Source: Candidatus Tectomicrobia bacterium (lineage in GTDB: Bacteria > UBA8248). From it: DNA of 29,928 nucleotides. This document shows, in pieces, positions 1,330 to 27,144 of the stretch. The stretch covers positions 1 to 29,928 of the forward strand of contig JACPUR010000028.1 in the NCBI GenBank assembly GCA_016192135.1, in the 5' to 3' direction. Below the pieces are notes generated by a model. The model searched no databases and was not told the origin of the DNA. It worked only from the letters and a program-made list of their open reading frames with translations. Position numbers and translations under genes: made by a program. How positions within the stretch are numbered: position 1 is the stretch's first letter; each line of letters opens with the position of its first letter.

Positions 1330-2349
1330 TTGCAGGCGAGGCGTTTCATCCACGGATGGTCCATGTTCTGGGCAGCCATCGGGTTCGTGTTACTCGCACC
1401 GGTTGCGCAGGCCCATCACATCACCATGCGGCCGGGCTTCTTCGGCCATGTGGTAGTGGACTTGGCCGTCTCGCCGTGGAATGGGTCCTCGCTCTATGTC
1501 GCCGCCTTTGGGCAAGGAATTTTCGTCACGCATGATGGCGGGAGCCGATGGGTTCCCCTCCGTGACGGACTGAGCGAGAAAAGCGTCCGCGGCCTTGCCT
1601 TCGGCCCCCGCGGGAGAGGGGAAGAGGGCCTTCTCTACCTCGCGACCGATCAAGGCGCCTTCCGGAAGGCGCCCGGCCTCCCGTGGGAGCCCCTGCCGGG
1701 GCTTGGGGAGCGAAGCGTCCGCGCCCTCCGGTTTTTGGGGAAACCCTCAGTCCTGTACGCCGCGACAGAAGCGGGCGTGTTCGCCAGCGCCGATGGCGGC
1801 CTCGCCTGGGAGGCGCGGAACCGGGGCCTCGCGCATCTGGACGTGCGGGCCTTGGCCGCCGCGCCGGGCCGGATGTACGCGGGGACCTTCGGCGGGGTGT
1901 TCCGGAGCGGGGACGGCGGGCGGACCTGGCGGGCCGCCAGCCAGGGCCTGACGGACCCCCAGGTGCGCTTCCTGCTCGCGGAGCCGGGTGCATCCGGCCG
2001 CCTCTTCGCCGGGACCGCCCTCGGGGGCGTTTTCGAGAGCCGGGACGGGGGCGGTACCTGGCGGGCCATGAACCGAGGTCTCGTTGACTCCTCCGTCATG
2101 TCGCTGGCCTGGGCGGACGGCGCCCTCCTCGCCGGGACGCGGGGCGGACTCTTCCGCCTGCCGCCGGGTGGGGACGCCTGGCACTTCGTCCTGGTGCAGC
2201 GCGCTCCACTCTCGATGCCCGCCATCGCGGTGGGCGTGTCCGGCCGCATGTACGTGTCGAGCGGCGGCGAGGTATACGAAAGCCGAGACGGAGGGAAGAA
2301 GTGGGCCCTCCTTACTCCAGGCGCTCCTCGCCGCGCCGCCAAGCAGTAA
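1330..2349 (+). CDS. Exported beta-propeller protein with BNR/sortilin-like repeats
   Basis: The 339-residue product has a signal peptide: a basic N-terminus, a hydrophobic FWAAIGFVLLAPVAQA core and an Ala-X-Ala cleavage site before HH. The rest consists of repeated blades carrying the Asp-box signature S-x-D-G-G-x-x-W: HDGGSRW, SADGGLAW, SGDGGRTW, SRDGGGTW and SRDGGKKW. Blades are joined by phrases such as LYAATEAGVF and MYAGTFGGVF. This pattern is typical of photosystem-stability-factor/sortilin/BNR-type propellers, which serve as periplasmic or cell-surface scaffolds. The TTG at 1330 is preceded by GAGGTG; an ATG at 1363 is the alternative start and still leaves a signal peptide. It lies 22 bases ahead of the NPC-repeat gene on the same strand, which suggests an operon with the cytochromes. 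No enzymatic residues can be assigned. Confidence 0.85.
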   Translation: MQARRFIHGWSMFWAAIGFVLLAPVAQAHHITMRPGFFGHVVVDLAVSPWNGSSLYVAAFGQGIFVTHDGGSRWVPLRDGLSEKSVRGLAFGPRGRGEEGLLYLATDQGAFRKAPGLPWEPLPGLGERSVRALRFLGKPSVLYAATEAGVFASADGGLAWEARNRGLAHLDVRALAAAPGRMYAGTFGGVFRSGDGGRTWRAASQGLTDPQVRFLLAEPGASGRLFAGTALGGVFESRDGGGTWRAMNRGLVDSSVMSLAWADGALLAGTRGGLFRLPPGGDAWHFVLVQRAPLSMPAIAVGVSGRMYVSSGGEVYESRDGGKKWALLTPGAPRRAAKQ

Positions 2350-2371: not shown

Positions 2372-2962
2372 ATGCGCCGTTTCCTCGGAAGGTCAGGAGC
2401 CGCCGCGCTCGGATTCGCGGCGGCCCTCGTGCTCCTCGGCTCGGCCCAGCCGCGCGAAGCCTGGGCCGCCAGCAACCCGTGCGCCCCCAAGAACCCGTGT
2501 GCGGCCAACCCCTGCGCGGCCAAGAACCCGTGCGCCGCCAATCCGTGCGCGGCGAACCCCTGCGCGCCAGGGGCGGCCCGCGGGCCCCAGGCCAAGGCCC
2601 GGATGGTTTCGGCCGAGGTGACCGGGTATGACGCCAAGACCCGGCGTCTCACCCTCAACCACCAGGGGAAAACCCTCGTCACCACCCTCAGCCCGAAGAC
2701 GGTCGTCCGGCTGGGGGCGGATGTGGCCTCCCCCGCCGCCCTCTCGAAGGGCGCGCGGGCGGTGGTCTCCATCCTGGAGAAGGGAAGCGCGCGCGAGGCC
2801 CTCTACGTCTATGTGGCCAAGGGAGGCGCCGGCGGGAACCCCTGCGGGAATCCATGCGGCGCCAACCCGTGTGCCGCGAAGAATCCTTGCGCCGCGAAGA
2901 ATCCCTGTGCGGGAAAAAATCCCTGCGCCGGGAAGAACCCCTGCACGAAGAAGGGCTGGTAG
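2372..2962 (+). CDS. Exported NPC-repeat (Cys-rich) protein
   Basis: The 196-residue product has a signal peptide (ALGFAAALVLLGSAQPREAWA). The mature protein is a central globular segment of about 90 residues between two Cys-rich tails. The N-terminal tail has six and the C-terminal tail seven copies of a short unit NPC followed by one to three small or basic residues (AA, AAK, AP, GK). The central part (MVSAEVTGYDAKTRRLTLNH and onward) looks like a small beta-barrel of the DUF5666/OB type; this is a weak assignment. The AGGGAGG ribosome-binding site lies 9 bases before the ATG. The same NPC units recur in the tail of the following cytochrome gene, so the two proteins probably share a property, perhaps metal binding, surface anchoring or disulfide cross-linking. 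The function is unknown to me. Confidence 0.85.
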   Translation: MRRFLGRSGAAALGFAAALVLLGSAQPREAWAASNPCAPKNPCAANPCAAKNPCAANPCAANPCAPGAARGPQAKARMVSAEVTGYDAKTRRLTLNHQGKTLVTTLSPKTVVRLGADVASPAALSKGARAVVSILEKGSAREALYVYVAKGGAGGNPCGNPCGANPCAAKNPCAAKNPCAGKNPCAGKNPCTKKGW

Positions 2963-3024: not shown

Positions 3025-3654
3025 ATGCGCCGAATGATTCGGATTCTGCCCATGGCCCTGGCGGTGCTGGCCCTCGCAGGGTGGTCTTCCGCCGCTTGGG
3101 CGGCCCCGCAGCAGCGCAAGACCATACCAATGGGGCCCTATTTTCAGACCCTGAAGGCCGATGCGTCCATCGACAAGTCGATCGAACGGGGCAAAACGCT
3201 CTTCAACGAGCTCGGCTGCGGCGGCTGCCATCCCCGGGGCGGCACTATCGGGGGCGTGCAGCGCAACGTGGCGGGGGACGTGGTGCCGATCCCCGTCCCC
3301 GACCTCAGGGGAGCGGCGCTCCACTACCCCCGCCTCTCGATGACGGGCTTCACGGCCAACATCGGGATCATGAACGATCTCTGAAACACCGTTTTCCTCG
3401 GCCGTGAGCCGATGGACCCGAACTCCCAGGAGTACATGGACCTCTACGCCTATGTGGCCTCCCTCACCCCGGAGGTCTATAAGTCCATGAAGAAATTTGA
3501 GGCCGACCGCCAAGCCCTCATGAAGAAGATGGGCAGCCAGGGCGGAAAGGGGAATCCCTGCGCGCCGGGTGGCGGCAATCCCTGCGCTCCGAGGGGCAAT
3601 CCCTGCGCCCCCAAGCGTAACCCGTGCGGCAACCCCTGCGCGCCCAAGCGCTGA
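3025..3654 (+). CDS. SoxA/TsdA-like monoheme cytochrome c with in-frame TGA (candidate Sec120) and NPC-repeat tail
   Basis: The frame from ATG 3025 (GAAAGGAGG upstream) runs 119 codons to a TGA at 3382-3384. It then continues in the same frame, with clear homology, to a TGA at 3652-3654, giving 209 residues. Order: signal peptide (about 1-27), a single heme motif CGGCH at 65-69, GAALHYPRLSMTGF, then MNDL-U-NTVFLGREPMDPNSQEY and MDLYAYVASLTPE, and finally five NPC units. In SoxA and thiosulfate dehydrogenase TsdA the corresponding segment is (R/N)IN-x-C followed by a conserved Gly or Met, Pro, and a helix with xLxAYxA. That Cys is the distal heme-iron ligand. The TGA falls on that Cys. A hairpin of bacterial SECIS type follows (3398-3412), and tRNA-Sec lies 1.8 kb downstream. 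I infer a periplasmic sulfur-active or electron-transfer cytochrome with selenocysteine as heme ligand. A disrupted gene is the alternative. Confidence 0.75.
3398..3412 (+). promoter_or_regulatory. Candidate bacterial SECIS hairpin in the cytochrome gene
   Basis: Bases 14-28 after the in-frame TGA form a perfect 5-bp stem TCGGC / GCCGA with the loop CGTGA. The loop begins 19 bases after the TGA and has G in its second position, which satisfies the usual bacterial SECIS spacing and loop rules. Its size and placement parallel the hairpin in the deiodinase-like gene. The two loops (AGGT and CGTGA) are not identical, so SelB recognition is inferred. Confidence 0.6.
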
Positions 3655-3796: not shown

Positions 3797-4597
3797 GTGA
3801 TGATGCAAGTCTTGAGTTTTGCCTTCCAGCGCGCCGTCCTGGCGTTGGGCGTTTTTCTCCTGGCGGCGGGAGCGGCCCAGGCGGCCTACAAGGCGCCGCC
3901 CAAGCCGGAGATGCCGGAGAAGGGGGACTACTGGCTGGGCGAGGAGGTCTACAAGGAAATCTGCTTCTCCTGCCACGGCCTCAAGGGCGACGGGAAAGGC
4001 CCCAATTGGAAGGCTTCCTACCCGCGGCCCCAGGTGTTCACCAGCCCCCTCATGAAGCGGATGACAGACGAATATGTATTCGCCGTGGTCAAGTACGGCA
4101 AGATGAACGTCCTCAAGGAAAAGATGAACGGTTTTAAGCTGAAGCTCTCCCGTCCCACCGCCATGCCCTCCTTCGGAGAAGTCCTCGAGGACGCTCAGAT
4201 CCGCAAGCTCATCGCGTGGGAGCGGGGCTTCACCACGGGCAAGCAGCCGAACGACCCCGAGATGAAGGAAATCTTCGAGGCCGCTTGCATCCAATGCCAT
4301 GGCAAAACCGGGCTGGGCAACGGAGAGCGGCCCGTGGGGAGCCAGGATCCCAACAAACCTTTTGTGAGCGAGATCCAGCCGCCTCCCATGAACTATCACC
4401 TGAAGGAGCAGATGGAGCGCTTCGACGACAAGTTCCTCTTCTGGCTCATCAAGGTGGGGCGGATCGATGTCTCCGAGCAGGTGAATTACAACTACATGCA
4501 GGCCTACGGTCACGTCCTGAAAGACGAGGAGATATGGGGCGTGGTCCGCTACGTCCGCGAGGCCTTCATCAACGGAAAACCCCGGACGAAGAAGTAG
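3797..4597 (+). CDS. Exported diheme c-type cytochrome
   Basis: The 266-residue product has a signal peptide (RAVLALGVFLLAAGAAQAA) and two heme-binding motifs, CFSCH at residues 56-60 and CIQCH at 164-168. Each opens a class-I cytochrome-c-like half. The first half has a candidate Met ligand in TAMPSFGEVLEDAQI. The second has candidate Met residues in PPPMNYH or NYMQAYG. The start could be GTG 3797 or the ATGs at 3800 and 3803; GGGAGAG lies upstream. It directly follows the Sec-candidate cytochrome and abuts the next gene by one base, so it probably exchanges electrons with the former in the periplasm. The substrate is unknown; a thiosulfate, sulfite or similar sulfur-oxidation role would be an inference from the SoxA/TsdA-like neighbour. 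Confidence 0.88.
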   Translation: MMMQVLSFAFQRAVLALGVFLLAAGAAQAAYKAPPKPEMPEKGDYWLGEEVYKEICFSCHGLKGDGKGPNWKASYPRPQVFTSPLMKRMTDEYVFAVVKYGKMNVLKEKMNGFKLKLSRPTAMPSFGEVLEDAQIRKLIAWERGFTTGKQPNDPEMKEIFEAACIQCHGKTGLGNGERPVGSQDPNKPFVSEIQPPPMNYHLKEQMERFDDKFLFWLIKVGRIDVSEQVNYNYMQAYGHVLKDEEIWGVVRYVREAFINGKPRTKK

Positions 4598-4598
4598 C

Positions 4599-5366
4599 GT
4601 GGTTCGGATTCTTTCGGCCCTCCTCCTCTTGGCTGCCCTGGTGGAAATCTCCTCCCACGCCGGGGCGGCCGGAGGAGGAGGAAGCCCCTATTTTCCCGGC
4701 GGTCGGCCCATGGTCCTTGTCCCCGCCGGTCCGTTCATCCAGGGCAGCGCGGACGGGCCGCTGGAGGAACAGCCGGCCCGCACGGTCCGGCTGGACGCGT
4801 TCTGGATCGACCGGGAGGAGGTTTCCGTCGCCGATTGGGAGCGTTTCCGCGCCGCGACGGGCCATCCCCCCTCGAAGTACGCCGATGATTCCCTCCTCCA
4901 CCGGCCGGACCTCCCCATTGTGGGTGTGAGCTGGTTCGACGCCCGCGCCTATTGCCGGTGGGCGGGGAAGCGCCTGCCCACCGAGGCGGAGTGGGAGAAA
5001 GCCGCCCGGGGGCCGGCCGGACGGCGCTACCCGTGGGGGAGCGAATTCGACCCGGGCCGGGCCGCATCGGAGGGTTCCGCTCCTGAGCCGGTGGGCGGCC
5101 GCCCCGGCGGAGAGAGCCCTTACGGGGCGCGCTCCATGGCCGGTGGGGTGTGGGAGTGGACGAACGACTTCTGGGGGGAGTTCTACTACCGGGAGGCGCC
5201 GGCCCGGAATCCATTGGGGCCGCCATCCGGCTTCCTGCATACCATCAAGGGAGGCTCATGGCGGGAGCCGCCCGAGTTCCTGCGCAGCGCCACGCGATTC
5301 CGCCTGGACGGCATCATCCGCTGGAAGACGGTAGGCTTCCGCTGCGCAAGGGACGCGCGCGGCTAG
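4599..5366 (+). CDS. Exported SUMF1/FGE-sulfatase-domain protein, catalytic Cys pair absent
   Basis: The 255-residue product begins with a GTG one base after the cytochrome stop, indicating translational coupling. It has an N-terminal signal sequence (ILSALLLLAALVEISSHAGA). It then shows the formylglycine-generating-enzyme fold: MVLVPAGPFIQGS, FWIDREEVSVADWERF, VSWFDARAYCRWAGKRLPTE, AEWEKAARG, GGVWEWTNDFW, IKGGSWREPPEF and VGFRCARD. True FGEs need two Cys in the segment between GGSW and GFRCA. Here that segment (LRSATRFRLDGIIRWKT) has none, so sulfatase activation is unlikely. Related cysteine-less SUMF1 proteins act as binding or accessory domains in respiratory and extracellular clusters. 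It probably assists the upstream cytochromes; this is inference from position. Confidence 0.87.
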   Translation: MVRILSALLLLAALVEISSHAGAAGGGGSPYFPGGRPMVLVPAGPFIQGSADGPLEEQPARTVRLDAFWIDREEVSVADWERFRAATGHPPSKYADDSLLHRPDLPIVGVSWFDARAYCRWAGKRLPTEAEWEKAARGPAGRRYPWGSEFDPGRAASEGSAPEPVGGRPGGESPYGARSMAGGVWEWTNDFWGEFYYREAPARNPLGPPSGFLHTIKGGSWREPPEFLRSATRFRLDGIIRWKTVGFRCARDARG

Positions 5367-5462: not shown

Positions 5463-5559
5463 TGGCGGGAACGCGTGGGAGTCGAACCCACCGACGAAGT
5501 GATTAGCCCCGTCCACTGGATTTGAAGTCCAGGCGGCACACCGGCACCGATGCGCTCCC
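5463..5559 (-). tRNA. selC: tRNA-Sec (anticodon TCA), CCA encoded
   Basis: On the minus strand a 97-base tRNA folds with the features specific to selenocysteine tRNA. It has an 8-bp acceptor stem (GGGAGCGC with GCGTTCCC) and a 6-bp D stem closing a 4-base loop (CGGTGC / GTGCCG). The anticodon arm is CTGGA-CTTCAAA-TCCAG with anticodon TCA at 5525-5523. The extra arm is very long, about 20 bases with GACG/CGTC at its base, and the T arm is GTGGG-TTCGACT-CCCAC. The CCA end is encoded. The 8+5 acceptor/T helix is the bacterial form. The anticodon reads UGA, matching the in-frame TGA codons in two genes within 5 kb. selA, selB and selD are not in the window. Confidence 0.97.
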
Positions 5560-26777: not shown

Positions 26778-27019
26778 CTCACTGCCCTCCGAGGATGGAG
26801 AGGAAGTCTTGCGGGGAGGGCTTCTGGACCAAGCACCGGGAGCCGGGAAGTGCCGCCCCGCAGACCCCTCTCGGGTCTCGCACGGCAGGAGTCATCAGCC
26901 GCATCGGCGGTTGGGCAGGGGGGACTCCATCCCCCTTGTTGGAAGTGCGGATTCTCCGTCCGTCCGCTCTTTTCGGCAACCTCCGCTGGGGCGCGAGGGA
27001 GGAAGGAACTATGCATGCT

Positions 27020-27048: not shown

Positions 27049-27063
27049 TTATCCTGGAAAATC

Positions 27064-27119
27064 AGGGGCGATGGAGTTCGCCGGGTACCGCCGTCTCTCG
27101 GGCGGCTGATAACTCCTAC
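27064..27119 (+). ncRNA. Fluoride riboswitch (crcB motif) aptamer
   Basis: The segment contains the conserved crcB-motif elements in order. GGCGATGGAGTTCGCC forms the first hairpin (GGCGA / TCGCC) with the invariant GATGG in its loop. A second hairpin, CCGCC-GTCTCTC-GGGCGG, follows, and then CTGAT and AACTCCTAC. GGAGTT in the first loop can pair with AACTCC to form the diagnostic pseudoknot. These are the hallmarks of the fluoride aptamer. The 3' strand of the pseudoknot is also the 5' arm of the following terminator. Fluoride binding should therefore prevent termination and switch on the two downstream genes. Confidence 0.92.
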
Positions 27120-27144
27120 CGGTTCGGTAGGAGTTTTTCTTTTT
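27111..27144 (+). terminator. Riboswitch-controlled intrinsic terminator
   Basis: AACTCCTACC (27111-27120) pairs perfectly with GGTAGGAGTT (27126-27135) around the loop GGTTC and is followed by a T-rich run (TTTTTCTTTTT). The 5' arm overlaps the aptamer's AACTCCTAC, so aptamer and terminator exclude each other. This is the standard 'on' switch of fluoride riboswitches. Confidence 0.92.

Follow-up and report, generated by a model that had tools for sequence, protein, structure and literature searches.

A predicted selenocysteine-containing cytochrome c of SoxA/TsdA fold in Candidatus Tectomicrobia

We analyzed a stretch of 29,928 nucleotides from a Candidatus Tectomicrobia bacterium (the window) and found a gene that probably encodes an exported monoheme cytochrome of SoxA/TsdA fold. 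The UGA at codon 120 would be read as selenocysteine (Sec), and the heme would be held by His69 and the selenolate of Sec120 in an enzyme with a TsdA-like mechanism. We put the probability of this reading at roughly three in four. The alternation of UGA and Cys among homologues, the constraint on the codons after the UGA, the equivalence of fold and alignment column to SoxA and TsdA, and the linkage to a diheme cytochrome are computed observations. The gene and its parts are as follows.

3025–3654, forward strand: predicted Sec-containing monoheme c-type cytochrome of SoxA/TsdA fold, with a signal peptide (residues ~1–26), a heme domain (~45–155), and an NPC-repeat tail
3217–3231, forward strand: CGGCH heme-c attachment motif, residues 65–69; CxxCH is invariant in the family
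3382–3384, forward strand: in-frame UGA, predicted to be read as Sec120, at the column of the SoxA/TsdA distal heme-ligand Cys
3550–3651, forward strand: C-terminal NPC-repeat tail of the cytochrome (NPCAPxxxNPCA...), which homologues have too

Gene product and predicted decoding of the UGA codon

With the TGA translated as Sec, the gene at 3025–3654 gave a product of 209 residues. It started with a signal-peptide-like sequence (MRRMIRIL...AWA), and the export signal was recognized by inspection of the translation. Translation of the frame revealed a single internal stop, the TGA at codon 120, in the context MNDL-U-NTVFLGREPMDPNSQEYMDLYAYVASLTP. Pfam Cytochrom_C matched the product with 26.5 bits (cut-off 21.3). 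The chain contained only one CxxCH and no second heme domain, and His69 of CGGCH is expected to be the proximal heme ligand. The exported cytochrome, its CGGCH, and its one in-frame TGA were all as the first-pass annotation of this DNA had described them.

Homologues of the cytochrome were detected in 14 of the 18 genomes of the window's phylum, its own included. The protein of one of these genomes (G002, locus L018; apparently the MAG of public record JACPCT010000130, Candidatus Tectomicrobia) was 89% identical to that of the window and had TGA at the same codon, and the 12 other homologues in the phylum had Cys (TGC or TGT) at this column. Genome contigs were scanned first and one class of Deltaproteobacteria MAGs next, which yielded four further genes of Deltaproteobacteria (L019, L020, L021, and L058) with approximately 60–68% identity; each of them carries the TGA at this position. 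Five Cys forms came from a more distant third class of bacteria. Over the 23 homologues, the column was TGA in 6, from two bacterial groups, Cys in 17, and another residue in none. The Cys/Sec alternation that the first-pass annotation had named as the thing to look for was therefore present, with Sec or Cys at the column in 23 of 23 sequences.

Constraint on the codons after the TGA matched that on the codons preceding it, with dN/dS of 0.02–0.18 in all pairs tested. Over the 50 codons after the TGA, dN/dS was 0.13 between the window and G002, 0.11–0.12 between the window and two Deltaproteobacteria genes, and 0.06 and 0.02 within the Deltaproteobacteria Sec genes. These values bear out the earlier statement that the same frame goes on as protein past the TGA. 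The segment contains two conserved helices of the predicted fold. Synonymous-site conservation between the two Sec groups was 0.72 in the first 12 codons after the TGA versus 0.21–0.62 in most other stretches, the pairs being non-independent.

The components of Sec insertion were searched in the window and in the genomes. A tRNA-Sec gene, said earlier to lie 1.8 kb from the cytochrome, was found there by two programs.

5463–5559, reverse strand: tRNA-Sec gene, anticodon TCA (ARAGORN; Rfam RF01852, 74.8 bits)

In the own genome of the window, selA (540 bits) adjoined selB (387 bits). The SelB profile gave matches at low E in all controls because of EF-Tu relatives, and matches that did not exceed the cut-off were disregarded. 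On this count, 14 of the phylum's 18 genomes had selB. Among the other genomes with the Sec form, selB was over the cut-off in G019 and G020, and tRNA-Sec in G019, G020, and G520; neither was over the cut-off in G002, which is 67% complete. In G020, where selD was also seen, the order on one contig (L020 1664–6423) was Sec cytochrome, diheme cytochrome, tRNA-Sec, selD, and selB. A genome of the same genus as the window with the Cys form (G001, contig C154) had no selB over the cut-off, yet a tRNA-Sec gene adjoins its operon; loss of Sec use may be under way in this genome, or contigs may be missing.

A stem-loop of SECIS type had also been reported after the TGA.

3395–3416, forward strand: candidate SECIS hairpin, stem of 5 + 3 bp with a bulged U on the 3' side, loop CGUGA from 18 nt past the UGA

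Its core, TCGGC-CGTGA-GCCGA at 3398–3412, was present as described and is extended below by CC/GG across the bulged T. The layout resembles that of bacterial SECIS elements, the distance from the UGA is the customary one, and the loop carries GU. All six Sec genes have the hairpin in identical form; the two groups differ by a single compensatory exchange (C-G to U-A), both bases of which lie at third codon positions. However, taken by itself the hairpin is weak evidence of Sec. When the peptide was recoded synonymously at random, the 5-bp stem also formed in approximately 21% of cases, with fold energy equal or better in 34–46%, and all five stem pairs were kept in at least five Cys homologues (L006–L009 and L011). 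Covariation analysis of five sequences gave one compensatory pair and did not clearly beat the shuffles (54/500). The hairpin was dropped as proof of Sec after the synonymous recoding and the comparison with the Cys homologues; it is compatible with a predicted SECIS function.

We weighed the reading in which the TGA is a true stop, arisen by a pseudogene mutation or an assembly error. The statistically unremarkable hairpin would agree with it, as would G021, a genome with the UGA form whose assembly had no selB or tRNA-Sec above the threshold. However, the contig of G021 breaks approximately 0.9 kb after the gene, where G020 has tRNA-Sec, selD, and selB. Moreover, the TGA is common to six separate genomes in two groups, the part after it is under the same constraint as the part before it and carries the two conserved helices, and other genes of the window end normally in TGA. 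A true stop or an error is therefore highly improbable. An altered genetic code was rejected because TGA terminates other genes of the window. Insertion of Sec at UGA 120 in the cell is very likely, because the TGA is shared, Cys homologues exist, the downstream codons are constrained, and selA, selB, and tRNA-Sec are present in the genome.

Genomic neighborhood and history of the Sec form

The cytochrome gene lies among genes for other exported proteins and cytochromes that recur in related loci.

1330–2349, forward strand: BNR/beta-propeller-like exported protein, conserved neighbor in Sec loci
2372–2962, forward strand: exported NPC-repeat protein with a central domain, conserved neighbor, no NCBIfam family
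3797–4597, forward strand: diheme cytochrome c, the most conserved neighbor in Sec and Cys loci
4599–5366, forward strand: exported protein with an FGE/sulfatase-modifying-factor domain, conserved neighbor in the window's phylum

Among the Sec and Cys loci examined, nearly all had the diheme cytochrome adjoining the gene; the contig of G520 ends before it, and it was absent in G342. In the phylum of the window, the FGE-domain protein was often added to the locus. Upstream, the NPC-repeat and BNR proteins were found in Sec loci, and the NPC protein also preceded some Cys forms. The NPC repeats (NPCAAKNPC...) of 2372–2962 and 3550–3651 are conserved across bacterial groups with no NCBIfam match, and possibly represent a putative metal-binding or cross-linking repeat. 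In MAGs of Deltaproteobacteria, an ExtKL-like multiheme cytochrome was observed beside the Sec cluster (NF040886, E down to 2e-18, below the cut-off).

L021 2862–4169, reverse strand: ExtKL-like multiheme cytochrome, NF040886 match
L019 1635–2921, reverse strand: ExtKL-like multiheme cytochrome, NF040886 match
L073 2217–3524, forward strand: ExtKL-like multiheme cytochrome, NF040886 match

A branch with support of 90/89, present in 91% of bootstrap trees, had the six Sec forms on one side in the cytochrome tree. The diheme cytochrome tree placed the window and G002, with full support, among those genomes of their phylum that have the Cys form and apart from the Deltaproteobacteria. The Cys form of G001 was 47–49% identical to the cytochrome of the window, and its diheme cytochrome and FGE neighbors were 80–87% identical. 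The simplest reading of these sequence comparisons is that the Sec form had one origin and that the gene was replaced horizontally inside a resident operon; the branch support of 90 is moderate, and the transfer may have run in either direction.

Two other observations were made in the window. A second selenoprotein candidate, a thioredoxin-fold deiodinase/AhpC-like gene at 222–875 on the reverse strand, has a TGA at 618–620 (FGAIT-U-PPF); Pfam T4_deiodinase matched it with 67.7 bits, and a strong hairpin lies directly after its TGA. Deiodinase-like selenoproteins occur in bacteria (PMC9312934). Two divergent fluoride riboswitches (Rfam RF01734) lie near each other at 26879–26943 (reverse strand) and 27058–27125 (forward strand).

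Relationship to SoxA and TsdA, heme ligand, and proposed mechanism

TsdA Cys123 ligates the heme, is conjugated to the substrate, and forms an S-thiosulfonate intermediate (PMC4423706). An AlphaFold2 model of the cytochrome core (pLDDT 76.9, pTM 0.75) was compared with the PDB, a test that is independent of profile alignment. The best nine fold matches were all SoxA or TsdA (Z 9.2–9.9), comprising SoxA 1h31 (Z 9.9, rmsd 2.0, 85 residues) and eight entries of TsdA (Z 9.2–9.7). The next match, with Z 7.6, was a peroxidase, and ordinary class I cytochromes were among the weaker matches. In the alignment with 4v2k, the offset at the end (model residue 112 to chain residue 154) puts model residue 81, which is Sec120, at approximately residue 123 of TsdA. 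Hydrazine synthase had been the top fold match by a small margin with the first, weak model only (pLDDT 62.9); it was rejected when the trimmed core resolved the ranking.

Profile searches were consistent with the fold. The SoxA model NCBIfam TIGR04484 matched 14 of 17 family members (best E 9.5e-6), and Pfam PF21342 matched 15 of 17 (best E 2.8e-4). The Sec members were below the curated cut-offs of both models (L019 and L020 scored 13–16 bits on PF21342 versus 27), and a relative from the third class, the G342 protein, passed PF21342 with 34.6 versus 27 bits. The family profile aligned over its full length to residues 18–126 of TsdA 4wq7 (E 1.9e-5) and matched the Sec column to the Cys in QRIGDCFERS; this profile included the third-class relative and the true PF21342 domain of G019, and because of the latter the test was not fully independent. 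A phmmer search of the Sec protein against the PDB returned generic cytochromes only, and the relation to SoxA and TsdA needed the profiles and the fold model. No relative turned up in a scan of viral contigs. The alignment to 4wq7 and the fold matches support the earlier claim that Sec stands at the place of the conserved ligand Cys of SoxA and TsdA. As modeled, the cytochrome very likely has the SoxA/TsdA fold.

Three residues of TsdA hold thiosulfate: Arg109; Arg119, which does not vary in TsdA or SoxA; and Ser127, which does not vary in TsdA (PMC4423706). In the 19 aligned rows of the cytochrome family, the Arg119 column (C-4) was Met, Phe, or Gln in all 19 and the Ser127 column (C+4) was Phe in all 19. 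The Arg109 column was Met, Ala, or Pro. The active site differs from that of TsdA because the equivalents of Arg119 and Ser127 are absent from every row. A search for SoxY at E 0.001 gave no match in the own genome (G000), which is 97% complete. With neither the thiosulfate-binding residues in the protein nor a SoxY match in the genome, the substrate is probably something other than thiosulfate. The first-pass annotation had noted that the ligand Cys carries the sulfur chemistry in SoxA and TsdA. The column of the ligand Cys did match, but the chemistry is not transferable as it stands, because the thiosulfate-binding Arg and Ser are not conserved.

The protein resembles TsdA of Allochromatium vinosum (4wq7/4v2k; PMC4423706) in the fold of the N-terminal catalytic domain (Z 9.7), the CxxCH heme, the Cys ligand at the Sec column, export, and a diheme cytochrome partner encoded after the gene. 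It differs in having Sec instead of Cys, one heme per chain instead of two, and an NPC-repeat tail, and in lacking Arg109, Arg119, and Ser127. The diheme cytochrome partner of TsdA itself is TsdB. The likeness to SoxA of Rhodovulum sulfidophilum (1h31; TIGR04484) lies in the fold, the Cys ligand segment, and the profile matches; unlike SoxA, the protein has Sec at the ligand position and lacks the SoxA-invariant Arg, its genome has no SoxY match, and the TIGR04484 matches tested were below the curated cut-off. The fold and ligand site are shared, the substrate site differs, and there is a single CxxCH; therefore, we did not class the protein as TsdA or SoxA.

By homology, Sec120 is likely to be the distal heme ligand. 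The iron might instead be bound, as in ordinary class I cytochromes, by a different residue, for which Met130 in the EPMDP loop is the best candidate, with the nearby selenol as a redox switch or nucleophile. Such cytochromes are among the weaker fold matches, and Met130 (C+10) was kept in 18 of 19 aligned rows; however, the position was Leu in the five third-class homologues, whereas the Cys/Sec column was without exception in 23. Met130 also aligns with a Leu in the NGRALAL stretch of TsdA, while the Cys ligand of TsdA aligns with the Sec column, and the top fold matches were families with Cys ligation. These results suggest that a Met ligand is unlikely. It is quite unlikely that Sec and the NPC repeats form a trap for soft metals or metalloids (e.g. 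Hg, Cu, Ag, or Te) in which the heme only recycles oxidized selenium. The NPC-repeat tails of the cytochrome and the NPC-repeat partner protein are conserved, ExtKL-like multiheme cytochromes lie beside related clusters, and metal binding has been suggested for several other selenoproteins in the available part of the 2026 prokaryotic inventory (PMC13188914). However, no metal resistance or transport gene was recognized in the conserved part of the cluster, and Sec occupies the ligand position within the heme domain, outside the Cys-rich tail. The fold and profile matches, together with the diheme cytochrome gene that comes after, might also indicate a thiosulfate dehydrogenase or SoxA proper that acts on thiosulfate or SoxYZ. 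The missing Arg and Ser (residues per PMC4423706), the absence of a SoxY match, and a chain without a second heme domain make this very unlikely.

For a cytochrome ligated by His69 and Sec120, the following mechanism is proposed. The SelA, SelB, and tRNA-Sec of the bacterium would decode UGA 120 as Sec. In the resting protein, His69 would bind the heme iron together, most likely, with the selenolate of Sec120 in place of the Cys thiolate of SoxA and TsdA. As in TsdA, the selenolate may leave the iron and attack, or be conjugated to, a small substrate containing sulfur, selenium, or a metalloid. The two-electron product would then be released, and the heme would pass the electrons singly to the diheme cytochrome encoded next, whose position suggests that it is likely the natural electron acceptor. 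Selenolates surpass thiolates both as nucleophiles and as leaving groups, and Sec therefore fits the role of the TsdA-type Cys well. According to the available part of one account, this Cys leaves the iron on substrate attack and is where conjugation takes place; the potential of the heme rises, and the heme then relays electrons (PMC9562282). The chemical nature of the substrate given here is a guess to which the Cys-rich NPC tail may be a clue, and the assignment of any particular compound would be doubtful.

Novelty and meaning of the finding

The first-pass annotation knew of no described Sec-ligated c-type cytochrome. In agreement with this, full-text searches of the literature gave nothing pertinent on a Sec-ligated heme, on natural ligation of heme iron by selenium, or on a Sec thiosulfate dehydrogenase, an earlier listing of the family as an unnamed candidate being possible. 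However, Sec-containing c-type cytochromes as such are known: the available part of the 2026 inventory includes ExtKL (NF040886) and the octaheme tetrathionate-reductase family, OTR (TIGR04315) (PMC13188914). These are likewise c-type cytochromes with Sec, but they are multiheme and belong to other families, and their table, in the part available, gives no Sec motif and states no heme-ligand role (PMC13188914). A selenoprotein of SoxA/TsdA type and the words SoxA, Sox, and heme were absent from the same part of the inventory (PMC13188914). None of the NCBIfam selenoprotein models matched the cytochrome significantly. ExtS (NF040971), a c-type cytochrome lipoprotein of selenite/tellurite operons, gave a non-significant match to the heme domain (E 0.07–0.08) in 3 of 17 members. 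Because Sec-containing c-type cytochromes were already known, the novelty lies in the SoxA/TsdA type and in the ligand position.

We consider it reasonably likely that the protein represents a periplasmic enzyme family with a Sec-ligated c-type heme, in which the selenolate would serve as both axial ligand and nucleophile, and whose Sec form would have arisen once, spread horizontally, and come to lie beside Sec-insertion genes in at least two lineages. The known natural ligands of heme iron are nitrogen, sulfur, and oxygen. If confirmed at the bench, this cytochrome would be a natural example of a heme with selenium bound to its iron. Over the heme domain, the Sec and Cys forms are 46–53% identical, and because both are forms of the same protein, they would provide a matched natural pair for gauging the effect of selenium on a thiolate-type heme. 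Such a pair bears on potential, ligand release, and nucleophilicity, which are points discussed for TsdA in the available part of PMC9562282. A family of SoxA/TsdA fold, whose genes are otherwise liable to be annotated as truncated, would be added to the prokaryotic selenoproteome.
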